64,000 bases of DNA from a virus. Location: positions 16,458 to 80,457 of IMG/VR virus record IMGVR_UViG_3300035145_001165; one strand, given 5' to 3'. Made by a program: the position numbers and the translations under genes. The first letter of the stretch is position 1. Every line of letters starts with the position of its first letter. Below the pieces are notes generated by a model. The model ran no database searches. It was not told where the DNA came from and worked only from the letters and a program-made list of their open reading frames with translations. This document shows positions 2,083 to 31,138 of this stretch, piece by piece.

Positions 2083-2730
2083 TTAACTATTGAGAAGATA
2101 CCACCCAGTCAAGATATATTTATCGCCTTTAAGAACTAGGTTCCCTTTATGGACGTGAGTATATCCTGCTGGCCAAATAACAAGGGTTCCTTGGTTTGCT
2201 TTAATGCGACGCTTCTGGTGCAGAAACTCAGTTTCACCACCTTCATAATCATCATTCAAATAAATCGCCCACACCAGAACCCTAGAAGAATGATCTAGAC
2301 CCATCGCTTCATAATGAAACTGATGATAACCACCACCTTCAGGGGTGTGTTGCATCTTAATAGATGTACTGATCAGACCCTGACCACGAAGTTGACCATA
2401 CTCAAAAATATAATGTTCTAAAGCAGACTGAATATATTGATGTGCTATCTTAGTAAGTTCGTGGTTATTATGGTTCAGAAGAATCTGATTATCATTCCTA
2501 CCAAGAGAACCATTATGGAACTGAAATCTACCATCACCAACATTATCTTGAATGTCGGGAGAGTGTAAGGAATACTGATCCTTCAGTGTTCCCATCCAAT
2601 CAGTAAATTGCTTACATACAGCGGCTGGCATAAGTCCATCCCAGACGCCTATAAAATCTTTAAATTCAACATTAGTAATGTTTTCGTCCAACATCAGTTC
2701 GATGGGACGAATAGGGGGTACACCTTCCAT
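2083..2730 (-). CDS. 2OG-Fe(II) oxygenase (phage type)
   Basis: A 215-residue dioxygenase fold. Likely iron ligands are H139-x-E141 (in FHYE) and H192 (in AGYTHVHKG), with K202 or K204 after it as the probable 2OG anchor. The core strand pattern LVWAIYLNDDYEGGETEF is characteristic of the prolyl-4-hydroxylase-like superfamily. Glutamate in place of aspartate in the H-x-D/E motif is allowed. It lies 6 nt downstream of the 962-residue fibre gene, in the tail-fibre operon. The substrate is unknown. Confidence 0.85.
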   Translation of the reverse strand: MEGVPPIRPIELMLDENITNVEFKDFIGVWDGLMPAAVCKQFTDWMGTLKDQYSLHSPDIQDNVGDGRFQFHNGSLGRNDNQILLNHNNHELTKIAHQYIQSALEHYIFEYGQLRGQGLISTSIKMQHTPEGGGYHQFHYEAMGLDHSSRVLVWAIYLNDDYEGGETEFLHQKRRIKANQGTLVIWPAGYTHVHKGNLVLKGDKYILTGWYLLNS

Positions 2731-2736
2731 AATTAA

Positions 2737-5625
2737 TCAGGGATAAATCGACACTCCACATTCGTTGTAGTTTCCTTCGAGACCACCGTACTGTGCACGG
2801 AGTCCGAGTTCGTTACTAGCACCAACACCGATGCCATTAGCATCATTATATATCGCTTGGTCCAAATCCGCAAGTGTTGTAAAAGTAGAACCACCATTTG
2901 TTGTGTGCTGGTTGATAAATGCATTCATCCAACCATCAAATGCAGCAGCTTCAGGTTTTCTAGACAGAATAGTACCAAAACTGCTCAGAATTTGTGCGCC
3001 AATCTGACCATATGTGAACGTACTCACAGCAGTCGTACTAGCATACGAAGAGTTTGTACCAGTAACAAAGTATCTATTGCTACCACTATTGAACGGATTG
3101 TAAGTATATGGTGCAGCAGTACCATATCTCAGGTAACCAAAGACGGTATCACCATACCCTGCAGGAGTTGTACCTGTGCCAGCAGTACAGTTGACAGTAA
3201 CAGTAACTGTTCCGCTAGTACCCTGACCTGCAGGACCAGAAACAACCAGTTCGTAATCCTTACTACCGTCAGGCGGTGGACCCACACTGAAACTATCCGT
3301 TGTGGTGCCAGACAGTTGACTTGTGGTGAAACCAGTAGAAGACACCACTGTAGTGGCATCAGTGGAGCTCCAGGTCAATGTAGTTGTGCTGACAGGGTTA
3401 GCAGCGCCGCTACCAATCTCCATAACAGCAGGATTAGCAGTCAACGTTGCTGTAGGCAGTTGTGTGACTGTAACTGTAACAGTATCAGTTGTTGTACCTG
3501 CAGCGTTTGTTGCCGCAATAGTATATACTGTAGTGGCATCAGGCGAAGTTGTATAAGTGGTGCCAGTCAATGATGTCTGCGCATCCCATCCAGAATCTGC
3601 AGGACTAGAACTATATGTAATAGATGTAGCACCAGTAACAGTGATATCTAAGGTAGCACCAGGATCATCGTCAATGTTGATACTAAGGTTAGAAGAAGCA
3701 CTGGTATCAATTGTGGGAACTGCCAGAGGATTAACCGTCAGTTCAGCAGTTTCTGTAGTCGAACCATTAGCATTACTCAGTGTAACAGTATAAGTTGTAG
3801 TTGTTGTGGGACTAACATTAACAGACTGATATGCAGAACTGCTAGCACCAGGAATGTTAGATGATACAAACGTTGTAGCATCATAAGAACTGTAAGTAAC
3901 GTTAGCGGTCTCACCGAAGTCAATCGTACTCGGAGTAACACTCAGGTTGATTGTAGGTGCTGACGGAACAGTCACAGCAACGTCTTGCGTCACTGTAGTT
4001 GAACCATAAGCATTGCTCAACGTAAGCGAGTATGTCGTGGTCGCCGTGGGGGTAACGACAATGCTCTCCCCAGTTGGTACAGTAGCACCAAAATTACTAG
4101 CATCAACTGCAGTAGCACCAGGAGCACTATAAGTAATGGTGCTAGAGCTACCACTACTAATGCTGTCAGGAGAAGCAGAAATTGTGATAGAAGGTGCCGC
4201 AGCATACGTAACATTCGCATAACCAGTCTGTACCAGAACACTTTCATTATAGATTTGAATAGTATAACCAACAACTTCACCACCAACAGCAGACCCTTCC
4301 AGAGTCATTGATACTGTATCGCCAACAATGTAACCGCCTTTAGAGTTAGTTCCACTACCGCCGACGTTGATAGGTGATCCACTAACATTACCACCACTGG
4401 TTTTAGTTACCAGAATATCGAAATTATAAACAGCGTCACAACCTGCAATAGTGAAACTGGTAGACTGAGTTCCAGATGCAGTGGTAGTTGAGATGTTAAG
4501 AGGACCAAATGCATCTGGAACGTTGTCTCCAGTATCAGCAGGCGGTGGGGGAGCAGTGTATGCAGAACTACTAACTCCCAAGAAAATCATATATGCAGTT
4601 TCTTGGAATTCAGGTCGAATAGTAGGATCATTATCCAGACCCAGAGTAATACCTACCTCAAAAGAACATTGCGTTGCATCCGCTCCCTGCGGTTGCATAT
4701 ACGCTGACATTTGTGAGTGTGAAGGTCGAATGGTACAGGAACCATTGTTGATGCTAATGTTACCTTCATTCTGATTATTTGCCTGAACACAATAGGCATT
4801 ATACCAACTATTAAATCCGTATGCTGAAGAACTTGAACTAATATGACTGTTCTGACCTCTGTTTCCAATGGAATCTCCCCATCCTCTATGATAGGATACC
4901 GTTCCAGTAATACCCGACTTGAAAGAAAGCCAATGTGAGTGCTCCGCTCCAGCACCTGCCTGATCTGGCCAAGTATAAGAAGGACCACCTCTAGGATTGA
5001 TTTTAAAACCAGTGTCGCCGTTACCAGGGTTGGTTCTATCAATTCTTGTACTACCACCCTGACTTGTGGTACTTGTCGCGTTTCCGTGATCGTGAGTAGG
5101 TTGAGAATTAGCGGTGTGATTCGACAACGCACCACTATCGACTACAATATGTCCACCAGAAAGAGATACAGAAGACTGTGCTGTTCTACTAGTGTTGTAA
5201 GAGATATTAGGTGATCCGACAACCTGTACTCTAGGTGCAACATCAGGAAGTCTCAGAACATTTTGACCACCATATGATCCACACGTATCTGTGTCGCCGC
5301 TATCGTGATCTTCTAATTGAGGTGAAGATGCATCTTCAGGTCTAATTCTACCAGTTCCGATCGGTCTTCTATCACGCAGATCAGGAACATTAAAAGATCC
5401 AGTAATACTAGGGAACGAAGCTTCATCGCCAGCACTACCACCGTAAGTATTACCAATAATTTGATACAGAGCAAGAAACTCGTTAGGGTTCAGACTTCTG
5501 CCATTACATTCTTGCCATCCATCAGGAGCATAATAATTACCATTAGAATCTTTCGGCATCATCGCAATGGTGCCGACTTGGACTCCTGTCCACGCTGGAT
5601 TCGTCTCGGAATAATACTTAGACAT
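2737..5625 (-). CDS. Tail collar / Ig-like repeat adhesin
   Basis: A 962-residue protein. Residues ~10-95 form a phage tail collar domain (GTIAMMPKDS, DGWQECNGR, YQIIGNTYGGS, FNVPDLRDR). Residues ~430-830 hold at least four Ig/Big-like repeats that each start near PTINLSVTPSTI or SITISASPDSI and end in a TYTVTLSNANGSTT-type strand. The last ~90 residues (ILSRKPEAAAFDGWMNAFI) loosely resemble the DUF4214 linker domain. It probably forms a distal tail fibre or decoration that binds the host surface. The stop of the upstream gene and this ATG overlap as TAATG, indicating translational coupling. Confidence 0.8.
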   Translation of the reverse strand: MSKYYSETNPAWTGVQVGTIAMMPKDSNGNYYAPDGWQECNGRSLNPNEFLALYQIIGNTYGGSAGDEASFPSITGSFNVPDLRDRRPIGTGRIRPEDASSPQLEDHDSGDTDTCGSYGGQNVLRLPDVAPRVQVVGSPNISYNTSRTAQSSVSLSGGHIVVDSGALSNHTANSQPTHDHGNATSTTSQGGSTRIDRTNPGNGDTGFKINPRGGPSYTWPDQAGAGAEHSHWLSFKSGITGTVSYHRGWGDSIGNRGQNSHISSSSSAYGFNSWYNAYCVQANNQNEGNISINNGSCTIRPSHSQMSAYMQPQGADATQCSFEVGITLGLDNDPTIRPEFQETAYMIFLGVSSSAYTAPPPPADTGDNVPDAFGPLNISTTTASGTQSTSFTIAGCDAVYNFDILVTKTSGGNVSGSPINVGGSGTNSKGGYIVGDTVSMTLEGSAVGGEVVGYTIQIYNESVLVQTGYANVTYAAAPSITISASPDSISSGSSSTITYSAPGATAVDASNFGATVPTGESIVVTPTATTTYSLTLSNAYGSTTVTQDVAVTVPSAPTINLSVTPSTIDFGETANVTYSSYDATTFVSSNIPGASSSAYQSVNVSPTTTTTYTVTLSNANGSTTETAELTVNPLAVPTIDTSASSNLSINIDDDPGATLDITVTGATSITYSSSPADSGWDAQTSLTGTTYTTSPDATTVYTIAATNAAGTTTDTVTVTVTQLPTATLTANPAVMEIGSGAANPVSTTTLTWSSTDATTVVSSTGFTTSQLSGTTTDSFSVGPPPDGSKDYELVVSGPAGQGTSGTVTVTVNCTAGTGTTPAGYGDTVFGYLRYGTAAPYTYNPFNSGSNRYFVTGTNSSYASTTAVSTFTYGQIGAQILSSFGTILSRKPEAAAFDGWMNAFINQHTTNGGSTFTTLADLDQAIYNDANGIGVGASNELGLRAQYGGLEGNYNECGVSIYP

Positions 5626-16307: not shown

Positions 16308-17219
16308 TTAGTTGATGAAGACGGTCGCTCCAGCAATTGTCACATTGGCAGTGGCAGTCACCGTTGCGTTCACGCCTGCTGCTATTGTAACAGATCCAGC
16401 GCCTGCTGTCATCACATTGTTACCAGCTACAACATTGGTGATCTTGTTACCGACCACGACGGTGTTGACATCGTTACCAGTCATAATCTTTTCGACCCTA
16501 CCGAGACCGCCTGAGGCACCGATGATCGTGGTCTTGGTAGGACCACCAGGAGGGATTGTAGGCAGAGGAGGGACAGGAGGGAGTCCTAGAATCTTCTCAG
16601 ACTCTCTACCACCAATAGTTTTCTCGTGATCACCCTTAACCACAGTGACCATATGACCCATACTCATCAGAGTAAAAGTACCTCTGGGATCAGTCATTGC
16701 AATGGTTCTTTCACCAAAGATAATATCATTTTGAGGTCCAGTAATAGTCTCCGCTTTGATATCAGTCATAGCTTCCACTTTAGGAGCATTCTGAACAACT
16801 TTAGACTTACCGTTCAAAATAATAGATTGATCGGCATTAACAGTAAAGTTCTTGGCAGCATTAAAGTTAATGTTACCCTCCGACCGCATATTAATGTCTT
16901 TATATGCGTGGACATCTAACTGCCCATCAACCTCTAGTGTGCAAGCACCACCAACCTCGATATTAGCATCCTGCTCAACTTTGATGAGAGCATCACCATA
17001 TGCGTGAACCAGAAGCTTACCAGAGTTAGGGTTGTCGGCAGGAACCTTAACTGCTTTGATCTGGACACTACCATCTTGCCTTAAGTAGACGTGGTGTCCA
17101 TCTTTATGTTGAATTAATTGATATGGTTTGTCTGGATTATCACAAACCTGCCATATATGACCAGATCTGCTAACCTCGCTTTTAGTATTCTTCTTTTTTG
17201 GATCTGACTTACTAGACAT
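16308..17219 (-). CDS. Baseplate spike-like beta-helix protein
   Basis: About 303 residues from the ATG at 17219, chosen because it overlaps the upstream stop as TAATG (an in-frame ATG lies 9 nt earlier). The N-terminus SGHIWQVCDNPDKPYQLIQHKDGHHVYLRQDGS is followed by short repeats of the TLEVDGQLDVHAYKDINM and IEVGG type. These are typical of the triple-stranded beta-helix of T4 gp5 C-terminus and VgrG/gpV spikes. The C-terminal ~70 residues are V/T/A-rich repeats (NVVAGNNVMTAGAG, TVTATANVTIAGA). It probably forms the membrane-puncturing needle together with the preceding hub gene. Confidence 0.75.
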   Translation of the reverse strand: MSSKSDPKKKNTKSEVSRSGHIWQVCDNPDKPYQLIQHKDGHHVYLRQDGSVQIKAVKVPADNPNSGKLLVHAYGDALIKVEQDANIEVGGACTLEVDGQLDVHAYKDINMRSEGNINFNAAKNFTVNADQSIILNGKSKVVQNAPKVEAMTDIKAETITGPQNDIIFGERTIAMTDPRGTFTLMSMGHMVTVVKGDHEKTIGGRESEKILGLPPVPPLPTIPPGGPTKTTIIGASGGLGRVEKIMTGNDVNTVVVGNKITNVVAGNNVMTAGAGSVTIAAGVNATVTATANVTIAGATVFIN

Positions 17220-20917: not shown

Positions 20918-22261
20918 TTAACAATTTTTGTTCATAGAATCTTTTACTAAAGTTGTTGCAGTAAAACATTCGCGTGGTGACATAGTATATCTATGCGCTA
21001 AGCGGAAGATTAAATAATCACCACCACGCCTGAGATCTTCATCGTCTGCTTCCTTTTCTGCATCAGGTTTTGAGGATTGAATGTGGAGTTTAATCTTGTC
21101 ACCAGCACGGAGTTCAGAGTTGCCTGGTACAACAACGTTGCTCACATTCATTGCCATTGTAGCACGGCGAGCGTTGTATTGACAAACAGTGTAGGGTTGC
21201 CAGTCAGGATACTCTGTATTAACTTCGCTACCGTCTCTACCTGTAGCATCAGATGCTGCTTCTTCTTCATTGAAGAATGCTTCGTTAGTGGTACTAAGTT
21301 TAAAAGTCCTGGTAGGTCTACCTTGAGACTGATCATAATCATCTAACCATTTCGTCAACCACTCAGGGAATGCACTTTTAGAACCGATGTGTGCCCAGTC
21401 ATCCCAGTGATCACTGAGTTTCCATTCTTCTTCTTTAAACTCCTGAGAATCTGTATTAGTAACAGCAATCACAGCACGGAAGACACCGTTGTCTGCTAAT
21501 GATTTGAGATCACCATCACGTTCGACAGTATAATTTTGAATGATCAAGTGCTCAGGAATTTTACCTGTGTTAGCAGGAGACTGATAGTATTCCCAGTCTG
21601 CTTCCTTACCACCATAATCATCTTCTTTGCCAGTAGATAGCAGATGATCAATAGATGCGAAAGTGTAACCATCTTTCGTACCCCACAAGAAATACCCACA
21701 GGTGTTTGCTTTCTGACCACTAGTAGGAATAGATTGAGTGCACACTCTGCGTGCCATCTTAGCAACAGAGATACCTTCGCCTCCGAATAGAAGTTTGTTG
21801 AATGGTTTATCACCACGCACCATAGGAGCTGTTGAGATACCAGAATCTTGGAAGACCGTAGCAAGAATCTGATCACCAGTTCCTACATATGTTTTCTCGC
21901 ACCTGAAGTTAGAGAATGCTTTGCTATCTGCACTGATCAGATTGATAGTAGCAATCTTACCCTTGAATGAAAGGAAAGGAGACTTAACGTCACCGACTAC
22001 AAACTTATACTCTTTTTCTTCGTCACTAGTCTGATCTGTCAGCAAAACAATTCTAAACTCTTCACCACCAGTGAGAGGGAGATCTTGTGCTGCTAAGTCT
22101 GTGACTGTAGCGACAGCAGTAGGACAAATTCTCTCCAGATCTTCGTAGTATGTAAAACTAGCGAGGTTATTGTTAAGAGTCAGGGTTTCACCTGTGTTCA
22201 AAGAAATCTCACACAGAATAAGTTTCCATCCAAGTTGTGCTTCGGAAGAGGGTTCTGCCAT
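20918..22261 (-). CDS. Baseplate hub protein (gp27-like)
   Basis: A 447-residue, beta-rich protein without signal or membrane segments. It has the pattern of hub proteins: strands FTYYEDLERICPTAVATVTD and EFRIVLLTDQ, TYVGTGDQILATVFQDSGI, and a late KIKLHIQSS/GGDYLIFRLAHRYTM segment. In T4 the hub gp27 (391 aa) sits between the tape measure and the gp5 spike. This gene sits between the tape measure and the gp5-like gene, so equivalence rests mainly on order and size. Confidence 0.6.
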   Translation of the reverse strand: MAEPSSEAQLGWKLILCEISLNTGETLTLNNNLASFTYYEDLERICPTAVATVTDLAAQDLPLTGGEEFRIVLLTDQTSDEEKEYKFVVGDVKSPFLSFKGKIATINLISADSKAFSNFRCEKTYVGTGDQILATVFQDSGISTAPMVRGDKPFNKLLFGGEGISVAKMARRVCTQSIPTSGQKANTCGYFLWGTKDGYTFASIDHLLSTGKEDDYGGKEADWEYYQSPANTGKIPEHLIIQNYTVERDGDLKSLADNGVFRAVIAVTNTDSQEFKEEEWKLSDHWDDWAHIGSKSAFPEWLTKWLDDYDQSQGRPTRTFKLSTTNEAFFNEEEAASDATGRDGSEVNTEYPDWQPYTVCQYNARRATMAMNVSNVVVPGNSELRAGDKIKLHIQSSKPDAEKEADDEDLRRGGDYLIFRLAHRYTMSPRECFTATTLVKDSMNKNC

Positions 22262-25200
22262 TAGAAATCAAGGTTGAAAATGTGACCGCCATCCTTGACG
22301 GGAGACATTGTGGGGAACAGTGCTACGTTGCCAGAGGCAGCAGTAGTACCACCATCAGCAGTAGCGGCACCCACAGGAGCGTTAGCAGCAGAAGTTAGTT
22401 TCTCCATCAGAGATGCCATCGGAGCGAAGGCAGCAGTTGCTGCTTCAGACATACGTTCTGGAACACCCTTCTCCTGCATAGAAGTTTGAGCTGATCTGAG
22501 TCTTCCCTCAAGACCTCTTAGTCTTCCAGTAACTCTCGAAGTCACAGAAGATGGTTGTGATGTGAACGCCGAGGAAGTAGAACTTAACATATCTGCTGAG
22601 TTGCTACTAAAGTTTGACTTACCAGAGAAGGGTGCCTTCCAATCGTATCCCATCTTGAGGGCGTCACCTCTAGTGCCAGGCATACTCTTAGGAGCTCCAA
22701 CATCAGTGGGACTAGTGGAAACTTCCCAGTGTAGGTGAGGACCACTAGATCTACCAGTGTTGCCAACATATCCAAGCAGATCTCCCTTCTTAATCTTCTG
22801 ACCTTCACGAACCTTAGCACGGTTCTGCATATGTGCCCAGAGGTGTGACCTTCCGTTGTCATCATTCCAGATCACGGTGTTACCGTAACCACCAAAGTAA
22901 CCAACACCACGGTTAGATTGAACAACACCATCAGAGAATGCTACCAGGGGTGTTCCTTCTGGTGCAGCAATATCAACACCCATATGGTTGTCTTCTTTCC
23001 TGCCATCACCATCCATATCACGCCAACCAAAGCGAGAAGTGACGACGATGTTATTCATTGCACCAGCGCCACCTTGACCACCCATACCACCTTGACCACC
23101 CATACCACCCATCATAGGAGTGCGACCAACGATACCTCTATCATCACCACTACCCGTTCCAGGTGGTGCTTGTGGAACTTCAGCGTTAGGAAGACTCAGA
23201 TCCATACCATCGACAAAAGAACTGAGGTTACCAATAACATCGCCACTGAAGACTTCCTCAGTACCCTTAACCATATTGCGGAGAGCATCACCACCCAACC
23301 AACTAGGAACATTGTCAATCAGTTTTTTAATGAATGACATTCCGTTTGCAACGAGACTGGCAACACCTTTGACAACAAAGGCGAACATATCAACCAAAGC
23401 TTTGTAGTACTTGGCAATGATCTGGATTATCGGTACCAACACTTTCATCAAAAGTTTAGCAAGAACACCAATAATTCTACCGATATTCTTCAGAGCACCA
23501 ATAAATCCGCCACCCTCACCAGACTCTCCACCGACACCGAAGACAGCAGCAAGTCCATCCATCGCGCTCACGATAGAACCACCAAGTTCTTTAAAGGATG
23601 TGATCACTGGACCGAAAGTCTTACCCCAGTCGAATGATTTAAATGTGTTCGCGAATCCTTCACCCAGGAACTTACCAACGTTCTCACCCAACCAGGAACC
23701 AACAGCAGCACCCAGTGCGATACCAACAGGACCACCAACAGCACCAAGGAAACCACCGATGACTGCACCTGAACCTGCACCGAGACCTGCGCCTGCTGAT
23801 CTACCAACGATCTTCGCTTTATCTTTCTGCAGACTACCATCAGCAAGACCAGCGTTGACTTGCTCTCGTGTCATATTATTCTCTTCCATCAAACGCTTTA
23901 TCTCTTCCTCGTTCGCTTCCATAGCACCGAAGCCAGCGGAGAGAAGAGAACCAATGACAGGAACTCTACCGACACCTTTACTCACTATACCACCAGTGCT
24001 CTTGAGTAAATCAGCGCCGCGCTGAGCAATACCAGCACCAGCACCGAGCACACCCTTACCACCTTTAAGAATTGCACTAGCACCACCAGCGAGTCCCTTG
24101 CCAGCACCTGCAAGAGCTTTGCCAAGGTTAAAGTTTAAGATACCACTCTTAGCAGCAGTTGCTAAGGTACCGACAAGACCCTTAGCACCCTTAGCAAGAT
24201 TTAAAATTTGTCCAGGCAATGCTTTGAAAATATTTGCCAGAGACTGTATTGATTTTACTTTTAATTTACCCAGGTTGGCTAACAGATCATTGAGGGCTTT
24301 ACCAGTTCTAATGTTTCTACCAGCACGGAAGAAACCACCCGCTTCATCTGCAAGACTACCAGCACCACGTGCCATATTTGGGAAGGGACGACCTGCGGTG
24401 CGGAGAACACTTGCATCCTGAGCACCAGTGATGCCCTGCATAAACAACGTACCCTGCTGCTTGATAGCACTAGCAGTGTTTACAAGTTTGCCTTTAGCAT
24501 TAGCACCACCACCGACAAGTCTTTGGAACCTAGAAGCAACACTCTTGGTAGGATCACCAGTACGTGCTGCTAATCTAGCATCAAATAAAATTTCATCAAG
24601 ACTATTCTTAAGACCTCCAACAGTAAAACCTTTGGTTTTTACTGGACTCTTTGCAACAGTATCCAACCCATCAGTGGCAGCATCGAATGCTCTACCAGCA
24701 CCTGCGCCAGCAGCGTTCCTAACAGTCTGTCTTATACCACCTTCTGCAGGATTTCGGAATCGCTTCGCAATGGCACCACGAACTGCTGCACCATCTTTAA
24801 GCTTGGACATCTTCTTAGATGTCGCAAGACCCATACCAATGTTACCAATGCCAAAGGCACTGAACCCCGCAATGGGGGTCATTAAATTCCTTAACTTATT
24901 ATACTCAATGGCAGCTCGCCTGCCAAAGTTTTGTAACTTAACGTCTGCTGTTTCTAAAGCATTAGCAAGACCTGCAACACCATCAGCAAGGACACCAAGG
25001 ATAGCATCCGACTGTGTTACAGCAAGAGTAAGAGCACCTGCGGCACCAGCAGCAAGCAGTGCCTTCTTTAACTTCTCAAAGTCCAGACCCTTCTTACTAC
25101 CACCTTTCTTTGCAAAGGGGTTAGAAATTCTGGGACCTGCCTTACGCTGCTTCTCAATTGCAGTTTCTTGGGCAGCGAACTTGCCCTTAGAAATCATCTT

Positions 25201-25383
25201 GTTTTCTAAGGCAAGACGAGAACGCTGAAGTTTAAGCGTCTGCGTCTGCAGATTTACCAGATCGTTAAGAAGAGCGTTAGTAACCATCTGCTGCTTCACA
25301 GAAGCAGCTTGGATTTTAACAAGATCAGTGTTAGCAGATCCCGTCAGCGGATTATTCTTATACTTACTGGTGTCTAATGCCAT
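22261..25383 (-). CDS. Tape measure protein with M23 peptidase domain
   Basis: A 1040-residue protein. The N-terminus is coiled-coil (LVKIQAASVKQQMVTNALLNDL and on). A long Ala/Gly/Lys-rich central region and hydrophobic Gly-rich stretches (GAGSGAVIGGFLGAVGGPVGIALGAAVGSWL; AKLLMKVLVPIIQIIAKYY) are typical of tape measures. Residues ~790-915 form an M23 LytM-type endopeptidase: HMGVD and HLHWEV zinc motifs, GTPLVAF, GYGNTVIW, GYVGNTGRSSGPH. The domain would cut peptidoglycan during DNA entry (family knowledge). Order chaperones-tape measure-hub fits T4 gp29. TAATG overlaps at both ends show coupling. Confidence 0.85.
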   Translation of the reverse strand: MALDTSKYKNNPLTGSANTDLVKIQAASVKQQMVTNALLNDLVNLQTQTLKLQRSRLALENKMISKGKFAAQETAIEKQRKAGPRISNPFAKKGGSKKGLDFEKLKKALLAAGAAGALTLAVTQSDAILGVLADGVAGLANALETADVKLQNFGRRAAIEYNKLRNLMTPIAGFSAFGIGNIGMGLATSKKMSKLKDGAAVRGAIAKRFRNPAEGGIRQTVRNAAGAGAGRAFDAATDGLDTVAKSPVKTKGFTVGGLKNSLDEILFDARLAARTGDPTKSVASRFQRLVGGGANAKGKLVNTASAIKQQGTLFMQGITGAQDASVLRTAGRPFPNMARGAGSLADEAGGFFRAGRNIRTGKALNDLLANLGKLKVKSIQSLANIFKALPGQILNLAKGAKGLVGTLATAAKSGILNFNLGKALAGAGKGLAGGASAILKGGKGVLGAGAGIAQRGADLLKSTGGIVSKGVGRVPVIGSLLSAGFGAMEANEEEIKRLMEENNMTREQVNAGLADGSLQKDKAKIVGRSAGAGLGAGSGAVIGGFLGAVGGPVGIALGAAVGSWLGENVGKFLGEGFANTFKSFDWGKTFGPVITSFKELGGSIVSAMDGLAAVFGVGGESGEGGGFIGALKNIGRIIGVLAKLLMKVLVPIIQIIAKYYKALVDMFAFVVKGVASLVANGMSFIKKLIDNVPSWLGGDALRNMVKGTEEVFSGDVIGNLSSFVDGMDLSLPNAEVPQAPPGTGSGDDRGIVGRTPMMGGMGGQGGMGGQGGAGAMNNIVVTSRFGWRDMDGDGRKEDNHMGVDIAAPEGTPLVAFSDGVVQSNRGVGYFGGYGNTVIWNDDNGRSHLWAHMQNRAKVREGQKIKKGDLLGYVGNTGRSSGPHLHWEVSTSPTDVGAPKSMPGTRGDALKMGYDWKAPFSGKSNFSSNSADMLSSTSSAFTSQPSSVTSRVTGRLRGLEGRLRSAQTSMQEKGVPERMSEAATAAFAPMASLMEKLTSAANAPVGAATADGGTTAASGNVALFPTMSPVKDGGHIFNLDF

Positions 25384-25571
25384 TACCTGTTAGCTTTTAG
25401 CTGTTGCTGCTGTAGCTTTTCTTCTTCCAGGTGCGCCAGCAGGAGAGCGATGTAAACATCTCTTTCCCAAGGCATCATCCCTTCGATCTCTGCTAGGTTA
25501 TATTTATGGTGCTGCATCAAAGAGAAGTTTGTCCTAAAATAGTTTTCAAGACTATTGTAAGACATACTCAC
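25383..25571 (-). CDS. gp51-like tape measure chaperone / hub assembly factor
   Basis: A 62-residue protein containing NLAEIEGMMPWERDVYIALLLAHL, the conserved segment of small proteins encoded directly before phage tape measures. In cyanophages it is usually linked with T4 gp51. The GTG start (25571) overlaps the gp26 stop as GTGA; an ATG at 25565 is an alternative. The frame is -1 relative to gp26, and a U UUU UUC slippery heptamer lies just upstream, so it may also be made as a gp26 fusion. Confidence 0.65.
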   Translation of the reverse strand: MSMSYNSLENYFRTNFSLMQHHKYNLAEIEGMMPWERDVYIALLLAHLEEEKLQQQQLKANR

Positions 25572-26281
25572 CCGAAAAAAGATGCAAGACCCTCCAGTGT
25601 ATACTCACACTCTGCTTTAGTATTAGGATTAATAACCGAGAAGGTGTGGGTAAGTTTAGGCATATTGCTGAAGAATTCCTGAACAGATTCAAACTGTTTA
25701 GAAGTCAGACTCTCCAAGAAACCAACCAATTCTTTTCTAGAAGAATTTGCTGCTTCATATACATCTTCACCATCAATAATCTGATCGATGCAGTCAGCGA
25801 TGAGTTCAAATACTTGGTCAGGACTCTGCTCCTGTTGAGCAAAGTTATTCTTGATGAATTGATCCAGAGAAGGATACTTCATCTTCACAGTGATGTCATC
25901 ATTGATATACACAGAGTCGCTGTGGTCATCAGGTTTGACAACTTTAATTTCATTCAGATCGATTGCAACATCAACCTGCGTTTCGTTGTCATCAGTGCAA
26001 GTAACTTTAAGTTCCAGTTCTTCGCCAACTGACTTAGAACGAATCATAAGAAACAGATATTCGAGATCGAACATCGCAAGTTTCTCAACTTTTAGTCTAC
26101 TAACAATACAACCCTTAAGAAGATCAACAATAGCTTGTTGAATTTGTTGTTCATCTTCTGATTCCATTGCTACGAGAAGAACTTTTTCTTCCTTAACTAG
26201 GAAGGGTCGGTACTTAATCGTTTGTCCAGTAGAAGGAAGCTCACACTGGTAAGTGGGCACCTCAAGCTTTGGTAAAGGCAT
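25568..26281 (-). CDS. 26: Baseplate hub subunit gp26
   Basis: A 237-residue protein, close to T4 gp26 (208 aa). The N-terminus PLPKLEVPTYQCELPSTGQTIKYRPFLVKEEKVLLVA is the hallmark of the T4 baseplate gp26 family (PF12322). Later blocks are LEVKVTCTDDNE-like strands and YEAANSSRKELVGFLESLTSKQFESVQEF. Its position just before the tape measure fits a tail-assembly chaperone role. A CTAAATA late motif is 23-29 nt upstream of the ATG, and a slippery heptamer overlaps the last codons. Confidence 0.8.
   Translation of the reverse strand: MPLPKLEVPTYQCELPSTGQTIKYRPFLVKEEKVLLVAMESEDEQQIQQAIVDLLKGCIVSRLKVEKLAMFDLEYLFLMIRSKSVGEELELKVTCTDDNETQVDVAIDLNEIKVVKPDDHSDSVYINDDITVKMKYPSLDQFIKNNFAQQEQSPDQVFELIADCIDQIIDGEDVYEAANSSRKELVGFLESLTSKQFESVQEFFSNMPKLTHTFSVINPNTKAECEYTLEGLASFFG
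25574..25580 (-). other. Putative -1 ribosomal frameshift site TTTTTTC
   Basis: At the end of gp26 the codons are TCT TTT TTC GGG TGA. The heptamer T TTT TTC fits X XXY YYZ in phase. A -1 slip enters the downstream 62-residue frame (CGG GTG AGT ATG) and gives a ~299-residue fusion. A weak 6-bp hairpin (25538-25556) starts 17 nt downstream. Confidence 0.5.
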
Positions 26282-26303
26282 AGTGAGTTCAGTTCAATAC
26301 TAT

Positions 26304-26310
26304 TATTTAG
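26304..26310 (-). promoter_or_regulatory. Late-type motif CTAAATA
   Basis: CTAAATAA on the minus strand, 23 nt upstream of the gp26 ATG, in the short gap after the tube-initiator-like gene. Placement matches other late motifs in this window. Confidence 0.5.
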
Positions 26311-26315
26311 AGCGG

Positions 26316-27083
26316 TTAGTTAAAGAGGTTCCCCATATCATTTGTGAACGAACTGAATGCTCGCCCAACGTTTCCTATCGCACTGCTAAGTGATGCTGGA
26401 TTAGATGTGCGGATGTTATTTGATTTACTTTTTAAATTCTTACGGGCGTCTTCAAACTGTACTTCAAATCTTTCGTAGTACAAATTGACAGTACACTTCA
26501 TTAGTGTAGCAGCACCTGCGTCTAGTGGAACAGCATCAATAGCATAAGGATAGCATTCTGTAAAGAAGTATCTTAAACTTCTACCTTGCTCAGAGTATCT
26601 CTTGCCAGGTTCAAACTTATCAACTGCAATAGTTGTCTGATAACTATCAGGATAAGATAGTCTAGTAAATCTATTGCGATTCCTCTGAGGAATAGAAGAC
26701 ATCTCATCAGGGATGACTTGTGTCTGTCCGAACTGAGATTTCTCTTGGAAGATTTTATCGAACCAAGCGTGGAAAACTTTCAACGCTGTCATATTACCAT
26801 CACAAATAAATGACAGTGACAGATCGTTGTACATCTTCATCGTCGGATACTTCATACTGTGACCAGTATAATATCCATTGACCTGAGAGGTCGCTGCTTG
26901 CACACTAGGAAGTGCTACGTTATCACAGAAGATCTCTAGCGTCCTCTGATCAGGAACGTTGCTACCAAAACCTTCCAGTCCCAAACGATCTAGGGACGGG
27001 ATAACAACACGAAAAGAATTGGACTTTGCAATCCCTCCACCGCGTGCTATCTGTTCCTGTACTTTTTGGTATAGATTCGCCAT
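26316..27083 (-). CDS. Baseplate tail-tube initiator, gp54-like
   Basis: A 255-residue protein with a tail-tube-type fold pattern: N-terminal SNSFRVVIPSLDRLG, RTLEIFCDNVALPSVQ, then YPTMKMYNDLSLSFICDGNMTALKVFHAWFDKIF and VNLYYERFEVQFED. The block LPxxQ followed by a strand-helix ending in W is shared by T4 gp19/gp54/gp48 family proteins. Since gp48 is encoded nearby at 28.1 kb, gp54 is the best match. Transcribed divergently from gp4, with a CATAAATAA motif 25 nt upstream. Confidence 0.65.
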   Translation of the reverse strand: MANLYQKVQEQIARGGGIAKSNSFRVVIPSLDRLGLEGFGSNVPDQRTLEIFCDNVALPSVQAATSQVNGYYTGHSMKYPTMKMYNDLSLSFICDGNMTALKVFHAWFDKIFQEKSQFGQTQVIPDEMSSIPQRNRNRFTRLSYPDSYQTTIAVDKFEPGKRYSEQGRSLRYFFTECYPYAIDAVPLDAGAATLMKCTVNLYYERFEVQFEDARKNLKSKSNNIRTSNPASLSSAIGNVGRAFSSFTNDMGNLFN

Positions 27084-27115
27084 CTAAATAGGCTGGAAGG
27101 ATACGTTTTATTTAT
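27084..27115. promoter_or_regulatory. Divergent late promoter pair
   Basis: In the 30-bp gap between divergent genes, the plus strand carries CTAAATA (27084-27090), ending 23 nt before the gp4 ATG. The minus strand carries ATAAATA (27109-27115), 25 nt before the gp54-like ATG and overlapping the gp4 start codon. The arrangement is nearly symmetric. Confidence 0.55.
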
Positions 27116-27554
27116 GGCGTACTCGGGGCAGTACAAACCAGTGAACTACCAAAAGTATAAAGGCAATCCCAGTAGGATCTTTTACAGATCATCCTGGGAA
27201 CTTATGTTTATGAAGTACTGTGATCGTGAAGCTAATGTAATCGAGTGGGGTAGCGAAGAGATCATTATACCATATCGTTGTCCCACTGACGGTAGAGTAC
27301 ATAGATATTATCCCGATTTCTATTTGAAAGTGAGGGACAAAGATGGTTCTCTCAAAAAATATATTGTCGAAGTAAAACCTAAGAAGCAGACCAAACCTCC
27401 TGCTCAACCCAAGCGTAAAACTAAAAAGTTTATGCAAGAGACGTTTACCTTTATGAAGAACACTGCCAAGTGGAAGGCAGCGAAAAACTACTGTGATGAT
27501 AGAAGAATGGAGTTTCTAATTCTCACGGAGGATCATCTTGGAATCAGTCTTTGA
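27114..27554 (+). CDS. 4: Head completion protein gp4
   Basis: A 146-residue protein (T4 gp4 is 150). It has a TnsA/restriction-endonuclease-like core: SRIFYRSSWELMFMKYCD (E29), RYYPDFYLKV (D68) and YIVEVKPKKQ (E86-V-K88), then a helical C-terminus with FMKNTAKWKAAKNYC. In T4 gp4 acts with gp2 to finish filled heads for tail joining. It is first in the only plus-strand block of the window and overlaps the next gene by 17 nt. Confidence 0.85.
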   Translation: MAYSGQYKPVNYQKYKGNPSRIFYRSSWELMFMKYCDREANVIEWGSEEIIIPYRCPTDGRVHRYYPDFYLKVRDKDGSLKKYIVEVKPKKQTKPPAQPKRKTKKFMQETFTFMKNTAKWKAAKNYCDDRRMEFLILTEDHLGISL

Positions 27555-28134
27555 AAAATTAGAGAAAGCGCAGGACGGTAAAGATAGATCTGCATCCTGG
27601 TGGCGTTCAGCATCCAAGAATGCAATGCGCAGTGCGTTAGCAGATGGCACCAAGGAAGCTGTTCTTCTCAATGAGGTCGGCAACGATGATGATCTCAATC
27701 AAGTTAGAAGAACACCTAGGGAGGGTACCATAGTCTTATTTGAATACGATGCCAAGACTACGAAGCAGAAACTAGCTTACTACGATCAGTTACCACTGGT
27801 AGTAGTTCTGGAAGTAAAGACAGATCATTTCTGGGGAGCGAACCTACATTATATCAGTCCGAAGAAGAGAATAAAAACTCTTAGCGCACTCCTCAGCAAT
27901 AAGATAGATGTACCTCGGAACATCATCCATAAATATAAAAAAAGTGATGTGAAAAACGCCAATCTTTTTATTGAGATTGACGAAAATGATTGGGACTCAG
28001 CGATCCATCTACCACTAGAGCAATTTGTTTCTGCTGTTGGTAAGATAGAAGTACCTGTTCTCTCCAAAAAAGTCTGGTTAAAGTATGATGCCCTTGCAAA
28101 ATATAGGTTCAGAGCGAAACGCAAAGTGTCCTAA
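27538..28134 (+). CDS. DNA end protector / head completion gp2-like
   Basis: A 198-residue protein from a TTG start at 27538 that overlaps the end of gp4. Its conserved segment TIVLFEYDAKTTKQKLAYYDQLPLVVVLE followed by FWGANLHYISPKKRIKTLSALL is a family I associate with the gp2 slot of T4-like phages. The order gp4, this gene, gp48, gp53 resembles T4 2-4-53. The assignment is from synteny and a remembered family pattern, so moderate. An alternative is a generic portal-neck or baseplate factor. Confidence 0.55.
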   Translation: MESVFEKLEKAQDGKDRSASWWRSASKNAMRSALADGTKEAVLLNEVGNDDDLNQVRRTPREGTIVLFEYDAKTTKQKLAYYDQLPLVVVLEVKTDHFWGANLHYISPKKRIKTLSALLSNKIDVPRNIIHKYKKSDVKNANLFIEIDENDWDSAIHLPLEQFVSAVGKIEVPVLSKKVWLKYDALAKYRFRAKRKVS

Positions 28135-29066
28135 TGGCAATTCTCGACGCACTTACAAGTAAATCATCGTTAAGGTTTCCTGCTGATAAGGTAGAGGACT
28201 TTGATGACTATATGATGTTCACTGTGTATGAATATCAACCTCCTTTCCGTAAAGCAAAGTGCATCGGTGAAGCAGGTGGTAGTCTTTATGGTGGTAGATA
28301 CGCTGACTATGATGTAACTGGTTTTGGTGGTGGCGAACTATCGCAGTCATCATACAAGAATATGATTCTCTATATGCCTGAGGACATCAGGGATAGTCAC
28401 TCTAGAGCGTGGGGTGATGTTCGTATGGGTAACCTTGAGCGTGCTGGTCTACGTATGGCTGGTTCCGCAATCGATGCTGCACCAGATATATTAACTCAAG
28501 GTGCTGGAGGTATATCAAATACCTTAAAGGGTATGATGCCTGGCAATCCTAGAGAGCAAGGCAAAGCATTAGCAAAGTCACTAGCAATTAATGCTGGTGC
28601 ATCGATGACTGGTCTGCAAGCTAACGCAGTTGCTGGTGGTCTTACAGGTACGATTCTCAATCCAAACATAGAAGTTATGTTTGATGGTGTTGGTATGAGA
28701 ACGTTCCAATTCAATTGGAGTTTAGTACCACGCAACGCTAGAGAATCTAAGATCATTCAAGAAATGATCTGGCAATTTAAAAAGTCATCTGCACCTTCGA
28801 TGGAAGCAGATGGTTGGTTTATGAAAGTCCCCTATGTATATAAAATCCAGTACAAGCAGGGTTCTAAGGACAATCACTGGTTAAATAAGATGAAGGCGTG
28901 CGCCTTACAAAACATCTCTGTTAGTTATACAGGAGCAGGTTCTTATTCCACAATGGAAGATGGTGCTCCCACCTCTGTGCAAATGTCACTATCGTTCAAA
29001 GAACTCAAGATGGTGATCTCCAATGACTTCGGTGACAAATTCAAGTACGGAACACAATACTACTGA
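28134..29066 (+). CDS. 48: Baseplate tail-tube cap gp48
   Basis: A 310-residue protein (T4 gp48 is 364). The region LNPNIEVMFDGVGMRTFQFNWSLVPRNARESKIIQEMIWQFKKS is the recognisable gp48 core. Earlier there is MVYMPEDI-like ILYMPEDIRDSHSRAWGDV, and a Gly/Ala-rich helical insert (~115-185). It caps the baseplate and nucleates the tail tube. TAATG-type 1-nt overlaps link it to both neighbours. Confidence 0.8.
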   Translation: MAILDALTSKSSLRFPADKVEDFDDYMMFTVYEYQPPFRKAKCIGEAGGSLYGGRYADYDVTGFGGGELSQSSYKNMILYMPEDIRDSHSRAWGDVRMGNLERAGLRMAGSAIDAAPDILTQGAGGISNTLKGMMPGNPREQGKALAKSLAINAGASMTGLQANAVAGGLTGTILNPNIEVMFDGVGMRTFQFNWSLVPRNARESKIIQEMIWQFKKSSAPSMEADGWFMKVPYVYKIQYKQGSKDNHWLNKMKACALQNISVSYTGAGSYSTMEDGAPTSVQMSLSFKELKMVISNDFGDKFKYGTQYY

Positions 29067-31138
29067 TGGCATCTTATTTTTCCTATCTACCTAATATTGA
29101 TCTCGCTATTCGTCCGATCAGATTTCCCTGGTCGGAGCAGCAATATAAGGTAGCAAAAAATATTTTTAGGAGATTTAAACTCTCCGATAGTGTTCTAGAC
29201 ACAGCAACATATTTCAAGAAGTATGTCATCGATGACTCAGATCGTCCTGATCTAGTATCAGAACTTCTTTATGGTCGTAGTGATTACGACTGGGTTATTA
29301 TGATGTGCAATAACATTATGAATCCATACTACGACTGGCCTATGTCTACACCAGTCTTGAATGATTATATCAACAACAAATATGATAATCCATATGATAT
29401 CAAACACTATGTAACAAATGAAGTAAAAGATAGTGCTGGCAATGTTGTGTTGCCTGCTGGTCAGATTGTAGATGAAGGATTCTACAAGGCACCTTACTGG
29501 GTAGAGTATGATAAAACTGATGTTGAATTCCCAGAACCAGAAAACGAAGTTCGATTAAACATAACGAAGAAGTTAGTTGTCGAAAGTATCAACATCGATA
29601 ACGCTGGTTTTGGTTACGAAACCACACCTAGCATCACCATCTCTGCTCCCAGTGGTAACAATGGTGAGATGCCTGCTGTAAGAGCAACTGCTGAAGCAGT
29701 AATGACTCCAGGTGGTCCTCTAGATTTACTAGAAGTTTTATCTGGTGGAGAAAACTATACTTATCCCCCTACTGTTTCTTTTGATGGAGGTCTAGCAAAC
29801 GAGAGTGCTAGCACTGTGATCGAAGACGGAAAAGTCGTGGAGATCAGACTCAATGGTACCTCTTTCGATACTACTGTTGCAGATAACATCTACGAATTTG
29901 GAAATGGTACAGTCATTGCCCAAAACGGTACAGGAACTGGATCGGGAGGAGGTTTTGACGTTGGTGGTACGCACCTCAGATTCGGTGACACGTGGGGAAC
30001 CCGTTACGCTACCCTTAACTCAGTAGATATGACGGACTTCGATACCGTCATAGTCTATGCTGTGCGTGGTAACGGAAGTAACGGTGGCGAAACACCTGAC
30101 ATCAATGGTGTGGAAGATCTCTACCTGAGATACCAGATTGTTGATGGTGCACCTGTTGCAGAGAATTGGGTCAACCTCGGTATCGTGATCGATGCTGTGC
30201 CTAATGGTACTGGCAGTGGTGTCTTAACAGGTTATGAATTCCAGGTACCTGAAGAAGTAAGAACTCAAAACGTTTACTTCCAGTTGTACCAACCTGGCAA
30301 CAGTGGTCCTCCGTATGATCACTACGGCATCACTACAGTCAACTTCGTCAACACTACGAAGGTGTATGCTTCTGATGCAAATATGTACTTCACCAACAAC
30401 CCGTTAGATACTACTGGTTCTGGTGCTGTTGGACGTGTGACTTTGAAGAAGAGCATTCAAAGTATTAACATCACTAACCCTGGTTCTTATGACGAGGAAG
30501 GTGAAGAACTTTTAATTACTTTAGGTACGGGTACTTTCAACCGTGGTTTTATGTACGGGTCTGAAAATATTCCTTACTATGCTGACGTTCCTGCACAGTT
30601 AAGTGCAACTGTGGTACAAGAAAGTGCTGCTATTAATGTAGGTGACGAAGTGACATTCAGTAATGGTATCGTTGCAGATGTCACTCAAGTTGAAGGCGAC
30701 TTCTTAGCAGTTAGTCTACAAGAAATTGATGTAGAGAATCCAATCTCAGAGGGTATGCAGTTCAGCATCAACCCTACTGGTGTTGTGACTAGTGTTGTCT
30801 CCACCACACTGACAGAACCTACGTTTGTAGATGATAAAAACAACTACTTTAGATACAAACTGCAGCGTCCTTCTGGTACTAGTGGGTGGGAAAAATTAGT
30901 TCGTGATAGTTTCCGTTACCGTGATCCTGATGGTTCTATTGTGACCCTACAAGGTGAAGCGATTGCTAGAGCAATCAGTCATCACGAGTATGAAACTGAA
31001 GCAAATGATAAAAAGCGTGAGATTTATATCCTTAAGAAAAGATATCTCCCACGCTTTATTCAAGAAATGAAGGAGCAACTTCCTTATAAGAAGAGCTCCG
31101 ATTATGTTAGCAAGACACTAAAGAGATCAAGTATTTGA
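29066..31138 (+). CDS. 53: Baseplate wedge gp53 with large central insertion
   Basis: A 690-residue protein. Residues ~1-150 (SYLPNIDLAIRPIRFPWSE, RPDLVSELLYGRSDYDWVIMMCNNIMNPYYDWPMS, YDIKHYVTNE) match T4 gp53, which is only 196 residues. The C-terminal ~60 residues (RYRDPDGSIVTLQGEAI, ATREISHHEYE-like RAISHHEYETEANDKKREIYILKKRY) are the gp53 end. Between them are ~450 residues of beta-rich, Gly/Thr/Asn-rich sequence, including SINIDNAGFGYETTPSITI and VLSGGENYTYPPTVSF repeats like those of the gp5-like hub. The insertion probably decorates the baseplate. Confidence 0.8.
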   Translation: MASYFSYLPNIDLAIRPIRFPWSEQQYKVAKNIFRRFKLSDSVLDTATYFKKYVIDDSDRPDLVSELLYGRSDYDWVIMMCNNIMNPYYDWPMSTPVLNDYINNKYDNPYDIKHYVTNEVKDSAGNVVLPAGQIVDEGFYKAPYWVEYDKTDVEFPEPENEVRLNITKKLVVESINIDNAGFGYETTPSITISAPSGNNGEMPAVRATAEAVMTPGGPLDLLEVLSGGENYTYPPTVSFDGGLANESASTVIEDGKVVEIRLNGTSFDTTVADNIYEFGNGTVIAQNGTGTGSGGGFDVGGTHLRFGDTWGTRYATLNSVDMTDFDTVIVYAVRGNGSNGGETPDINGVEDLYLRYQIVDGAPVAENWVNLGIVIDAVPNGTGSGVLTGYEFQVPEEVRTQNVYFQLYQPGNSGPPYDHYGITTVNFVNTTKVYASDANMYFTNNPLDTTGSGAVGRVTLKKSIQSINITNPGSYDEEGEELLITLGTGTFNRGFMYGSENIPYYADVPAQLSATVVQESAAINVGDEVTFSNGIVADVTQVEGDFLAVSLQEIDVENPISEGMQFSINPTGVVTSVVSTTLTEPTFVDDKNNYFRYKLQRPSGTSGWEKLVRDSFRYRDPDGSIVTLQGEAIARAISHHEYETEANDKKREIYILKKRYLPRFIQEMKEQLPYKKSSDYVSKTLKRSSI

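Follow-up and report, generated by a model that had tools for sequence, protein, structure and literature searches.

A predicted -1 frameshift joining gp26-like and gp51-like reading frames into a lambda-type pair of tail assembly chaperones in a cyanophage-like virus

Phage lambda produces a short protein, which binds the tape measure protein, together with a -1 frameshift fusion (excerpts of PMC5009743). The same excerpts describe this lambda-type frameshift as widely conserved 'except T4' (PMC5009743). In T4, gp26 and gp51 are hub assembly chaperones, gp51 being essential and of unknown function, and the conclusions on hub assembly have been contradictory, as excerpts of PMC3004832 put it. 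The tail assembly chaperones (TACs) of T4-like phages have been treated by Vladimirov et al. 2022 (Virology 566:9-15), a study cited for polyT slippery sequences in TAC-N genes (per PMC12846349) and for T4-like phages in which the short and the long form each have a gene (Vladimirov, Gautam & Davidson 2022, per PMC10885494). In the Vandenendeviridae and Andersonviridae, a -1 frameshift at a GTTTTT motif has been proposed for a tail assembly chaperone (excerpts of PMC12846349). Judging from these citing passages, the core idea of frameshifting in T4-like phages is in essence already in print (Vladimirov et al. 2022), and the fuller three-part signal and the tandem pair of RB43 described below may be new. 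No description of a Shine-Dalgarno (SD)-like element or a hairpin of the gp26-like gene was found among the listings and selected passages of a literature search.

The window, which is the whole stretch of DNA analysed, comprises 64,000 nucleotides of the viral record IMGVR_UViG_3300035145_001165 (positions 16,458 to 80,457). No near-identical DNA to its positions 22000-30000 was found by megablast in the phages collection. The features of interest lie on the minus strand (Table 1). The gp26-like open reading frame (ORF) matches PF12322 (T4_baseplate, E 3.2e-72) and phrog_150 (E 9.9e-81), and it ends with the codons TCT TTT TTC GGG TGA at 25582-25568 (-). The in-phase U UUU UUC heptamer that the first-pass annotation had pointed out is indeed present here. 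A -1 slip on the heptamer would add 63 residues and give a gp26-like/gp51-like fusion of 299 residues, in agreement with the length of about 299 residues foreseen from the overlapping 62-residue ORF. Among 112 ORFs of the window, defined mechanically as those of at least 100 aa on both strands and in all frames, only the gp26-like ORF carries an in-phase T TTT TTN within two codons of its stop. The 62-aa gp51-like ORF matches phrog_634 (E 6e-27) and lacks PF12322. It also matches phrog_150 at positions 240-276, which gave an early indication that the extension may be carried in frame by some gp26 family members. In the possibly incomplete record of 80,457 bases, PF12322 has a single match, and a separate gene for the full-length long form, as in the two-gene arrangement of T4, was not found in the window. 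The stop codon of the fusion (25385-25383) shares base 25383 with the ATG of the tape-measure-like ORF. The M23 peptidase domain of the latter (window 22261-25383) occupies residues 799-890. Because the tape-measure PHROGs match the 1040-aa ORF in its M23 region only, the assignment is drawn from place and length, and the ORF is likely to encode the tape measure protein.

Table 1. Features of the gp26-like/gp51-like locus, in window coordinates
Feature	Position	Strand	Remarks
gp26-like ORF, 237 aa	25568..26281	-	putative short tail assembly chaperone (TAC-N); PF12322, phrog_150, AlphaFold2 model
Slippery heptamer T TTT TTC	25574..25580	-	in phase, one codon ahead of the TGA stop
SD-like GAGGG	25590..25594	-	candidate upstream stimulator; 10 nt from the end of GAGG to the heptamer
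Downstream hairpin	25525..25569, core 25530-25564	-	candidate downstream stimulator; spacer 4 nt
-1 frame extension, 63 aa + stop	25383..25574	-	gp51-like, putative TAC-C; would be read after the slip
gp51-like stand-alone ORF, 62 aa	25383..25571	-	same -1 frame; GTG 25571, ATG 25565, separate initiation possible
Tape-measure-like ORF, 1040 aa	22261..25383	-	M23 peptidase domain, PF01551 E 3e-27

As a reading of the sequence, we hold with high confidence that programmed -1 frameshifting produces a short and a long tail assembly chaperone of the lambda gpG/gpGT type. Both the gp26-like protein and the fusion would be made from one reading start. Most ribosomes would end at the TGA and release the 237-residue short form, whereas some would move back by one base on U UUU UUC and continue to the 299-residue long form (TAC-NC). 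The slip is probably aided by the SD-like GAGG 10 nt upstream and by the hairpin just downstream. If the two forms act like lambda gpG/gpGT, the tape measure protein encoded next would be coated by many copies of the short form and few of the long one, and the extension would recruit tail-tube subunits. We infer the occurrence of slippage, its rate and the chaperone action of the two products. A chaperone pair of this kind directly before the tape measure gene had been suggested at the outset, and the gene order, the phase and the slip site all support it.

The signal, its conservation and the -1 phase are observed in a survey of related contigs. A total of 327 related contig loci were fetched, in part through distant searches with single proteins, and 6 of them are cut short; the 321 complete junctions comprise 269 distinct ones, including one (L001) whose gp26 is identical to that of the window. 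In 269/269 distinct junctions, T TTT TTN is located in phase 0-2 codons before the gp26 stop, although these relatives are not independent and such counts overstate the number of independent events. The comparison of junctions across relatives that had been proposed as a check therefore favours the slip site, with both the heptamer and the -1 phase found throughout. The last codon of the heptamer is TTC in 231 junctions, TTA in 20, TTT in 17 and TTG in 1. In none of the 269 is the -1 frame closed by a stop over the first 40 codons, and the extension is complete in 263 (57-69 aa), the remaining 6 reaching the end of the stored DNA before a stop. The codon before the heptamer TTT ends in T in all 248 junctions with TTC or TTT. 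This codon is TCT, AGT, AAT, GAT, GGT or GCT and thus encodes Ser, Asn, Asp, Gly or Ala. Because the T is kept across several amino-acid changes, selection at the protein level in the gp26 frame does not explain it. The first set contained 69 distinct junctions; the second Phe codon is TTC in all of them, whereas TTC makes up 235 of the 792 Phe codons in the rest of these genes. When columns are ranked by excess codon conservation, the two Phe columns stand third and fourth of 100, with two columns at the gene start above them.

A further set of more distant relatives comprises 23 loci, namely 21 named phage records and two contigs shared with the survey, L096 and L097. All 23 loci have an open -1 frame, and the T TTT TTN heptamer is present in 17/23; of the two features expected to be conserved, the phase thus stood throughout and the heptamer did not in six. 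Carriers of the heptamer include Kyanoviridae, Straboviridae of Vibrio and Aeromonas, Stenotrophomonas phage YB07, Pseudomonas phage Milchi and Rhizobium/Sinorhizobium phages. No T TTT TTN is found in SH19 (L108), phiDP10.3 (L109), XDRKpn-1 (L110), 3M (L111), Vibrio D509 (L088) and SD25 (L089), where the junction at the gp26 stop reads, for example, ATT TTC ATT TAA. Four of the six, SD25, SH19, phiDP10.3 and 3M, are Ackermannviridae according to their records, and the five that were placed in the tree form one clade (99/99). In SH19, XDRKpn-1 and 3M, the 30 nt that follow the gp26 stop also contain no start codon. This clade with the Ackermannviridae counts against the frameshift reading, because the -1 frame is kept there without T TTT TTN.

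Switching of the ribosome between frames may depend on elements that flank the slip site. The -1 signal of E. coli dnaX consists of an SD-like element about 10 nt upstream, a heptamer and a downstream hairpin, and all three parts are found in the window. An SD-like GAGG, GGAG or AGGA occurs at positions -22 to -3 in 202/269 loci, compared with 917/8036 control windows, and is absent at 67/269. Its position peaks at -14/-15, which resembles the spacing of the dnaX stimulator. Part of the excess arises because a Glu-Gly is conserved at this site. The Glu codon there is GAG in 56/69 junctions, compared with 650/1789 Glu codons elsewhere.

On the downstream side, the hairpin had been described as a weak one of 6 bp. 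This has to be corrected: the 50 nt past the heptamer form a long interrupted stem with a folding energy of -14.3 kcal/mol and a spacer of 4 nt. In 68 of the 269 loci, sampled for folding against dinucleotide shuffles, the mean z has its peak of -2.77 in 50-nt windows beginning 6 nt past the heptamer, where 76% of the loci lie below -1.5; for starts between -600 and -20 or between +30 and +120, the mean z ranges from -1.19 to +0.14. A single conserved structure over all loci was also sought, and RNAalifold yielded no consensus hairpin in any of four ranges. The fold lies near the same place and differs in shape between clades. Most of the 13 inner pairs of the window are formed only in the clade of the window and a few other loci, and the majority of loci cannot form its stem. 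In the stem of the window clade, 85.5% of the cells are paired over 18 sequences. Three outer-stem pairs show changes on both sides within this close clade, one of them being UA:10 / CG:8, and two inner-stem pairs are unpaired in 6 and 13 of the 18 rows. Three measures of the stem count over the 18 rows lie above all or nearly all shuffles, while further pair types do not exceed them (5 observed, 5.4 in shuffles); the rows were chosen as members of the window/Syn1 clade or as keepers of the stem, so that the count leans towards structure, and it left out L032 and L240, which belong to other clades and have pairs equal to those of some rows used, and L125, a copy of L126. Because the rows were picked for the stem of the window, the compensatory changes would provide support, not proof, for the hairpin of the window clade. 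The SD-like element and the hairpin are candidate stimulators that may raise slippage.

T4 genes 26 and 51 lie on opposite strands. Frameshifting is reportedly kept in several T4-like groups, and T4 itself is said to use genes 26 and 51. The first-pass annotation had regarded the two T4 products as merely separate hub factors, a view that needs revising, since T4 gp51 comprises the whole gp26-like domain and the extension. T4 gp51 matches PF12322 over residues 1-201 and phrog_150 at positions 13-280 of 282, whereas T4 gp26 matches phrog_150 at positions 14-235 only. Comparison of a profile of 53 of the 263 fusions with one of 8 T4-type gp51 rows gives a probability of 98.9 (E 1.4e-17, 228 columns), and the alignment continues across the slip point, the 10 residues on either side being free of gaps. 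The extension alone aligns with the C-terminus of gp51 with a probability of 93.6 (E 2e-7). Because gp51 is collinear with the fusion through the slip point, T4 gp51 corresponds to an in-frame long form and T4 gp26 to a short form. In one T4-like contig (L106:3001-3746), the length of the gp51 match is not divisible by three and the match cannot be translated in one frame, which reflects either a real or a sequencing break.

In RB43 (L117:2501-3794), a gp51-like gene (2501-3244) and a gp26-like gene (3237-3794) overlap head to tail on a single strand, an arrangement that a tandem duplication would leave. Genes with the -1 extension fall on one side of the tree (91/94), the T4-type gp51 proteins form a clade (100/97) and six gp26 rows form another (98/98). 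RB43 gp26 is placed outside the gp26 clade on a long branch, and its place is unsure. The tree was rooted at its midpoint and gives no date for the duplication. A model can be drawn in which the ancestor of the T4 superfamily had a single chaperone gene with a frameshift and the full dnaX-like signal, that is, an SD-like element, U UUU UUN and a hairpin that varies between clades. In the T4 branch, a tandem duplication would then have taken the place of recoding and given separate short and long genes, which are still head to tail in RB43 and were later inverted in T4. We consider the chances of this history to be evenly balanced.

No solved structure was matched by sequence. The AlphaFold2 model of gp26 has a pLDDT of 86.3, and VIA-align places its N-terminal domain with 3fgx (Z 7.7), 2ob9_A (Z 7.7) and 5ir0 (Z 5.5), the next row being at Z 2.5. 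The entry 2ob9_A is the HK97 tail assembly chaperone, aligned over 84 residues with an rmsd of 4.3 and a Z of 7.7, which is under 8 and falls in the range of 7 to 8 that VIA-align itself cautions is common for the best hit of models without clear relatives. Because such values are common, what gives the HK97 match its weight is the distance in Z from the next row, together with what the hit is. In Foldseek, too, 2ob9 comes first for the gp26 model, as a weak hit (E 0.66). The modelled resemblance of the N-terminal domain to the HK97 tail assembly chaperone is therefore supportive, not decisive. The model of a T4-type gp51 (row L103, pLDDT 88.1) has a similar order of helices and strands and extra C-terminal helices. 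Neither Foldseek nor VIA-align gave a chaperone match for this gp51 model, which does not make the folds different.

Start codons near the gp26 stop raise other ways in which the extension may be made. Both routes could operate together, the long form being made by frameshifting and some free extension by re-initiation. This would be compatible with the frameshift reading, and start codons near the stop are frequent, an ATG lying within 12 codons after the slip in 164/269 relatives; such ATG codons may be plain Met residues of the linker, and the same protein is kept in loci that lack a start, so that we think the combination rather unlikely.

Translational coupling would dispense with the fusion altogether, the ribosome re-initiating after the gp26 TGA at the GTG or at the ATG two bases on. 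In the window, the GTG and ATG overlap or follow the gp26 stop and would allow such re-initiation, and the ATG codons of the 164 relatives agree with it. So does current annotation: among the 21 named records, the gp51-like coding sequence starts near the overlap in 11 and at an internal start in 5, and it is unannotated in 5, so that a separate coding sequence, whole or shortened, appears in 16/21 and a joined gene in 0. The internal starts are those of Melnitz-2 (L082:3750-3893), Milchi (L084:3798-3941), IG49 (L090:3684-3824), Syn1 (L115:3268-3399) and Aeromonas 65 (Aer65; L114:3316-3396), and the extension is unannotated in AsFcp_2 (L087), D509 (L088), SH19 (L108), XDRKpn-1 (L110) and 3M (L111). 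However, coupling explains neither the invariant heptamer and its T wobble base nor the T4-type in-frame protein that is collinear across the slip point. More than 20 nt separate the SD-like motif from the ATG downstream, a distance too great for an SD to serve that start codon. Furthermore, no ATG, GTG or TTG is present in the first 12 codons after the slip in 52/269 loci, and no ATG in 105/269. In 40 listed examples of the 52 start-less loci, the residues at this place are similar to those of loci with starts. Coupling likewise leaves Melnitz-2, Aer65 and others of the distant set unexplained: Aer65 has no start in 25 codons past the stop, and the sole ATG of Melnitz-2 is inside the conserved block. 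Without frameshifting, it is hard to see how these start-less phages would make the conserved linker, and we judge coupling without a fusion to be very improbable. Transcriptional slippage in place of ribosomal frameshifting is the least probable of the three and barely credible, because the six-T run, conserved as it is, is short for slippage by RNA polymerase, the phase shows the constraint of tandem tRNA slippage, and the run is flanked by elements that may stimulate slipping of the ribosome.

If the frameshift reading is right, database entries split one recoded gene into two, and 10/21 named records shorten or omit its second part. An uncultivated cyanophage-like virus and 269 distinct contig junctions would be placed in the lambda-type chaperone scheme, and the stoichiometry of gp26 and gp51 in T4-like tail assembly becomes testable.

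The present locus can be compared with known systems as follows. Lambda gpG/gpGT has the same arrangement of a short protein and a -1 fusion directly before the tape measure gene. The slip site here is U UUU UUC in a T4-like phage. The dnaX signal shares the three-part layout and differs in its heptamer and its gene. As far as excerpts describe them, the T4-like chaperones of Vladimirov et al. 2022 likewise come in a short and a long form, and for the Vandenendeviridae and Andersonviridae the proposed -1 frameshift is at a T run close to where TAC-N ends, ahead of the tape measure. The latter two are other phage families. T4 gp26 and gp51 belong to the same domain family, PF12322, and gp51 has the same C-terminal extension. 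However, the two forms in T4 are separate genes on opposite strands, and a frameshift is not needed to make them.
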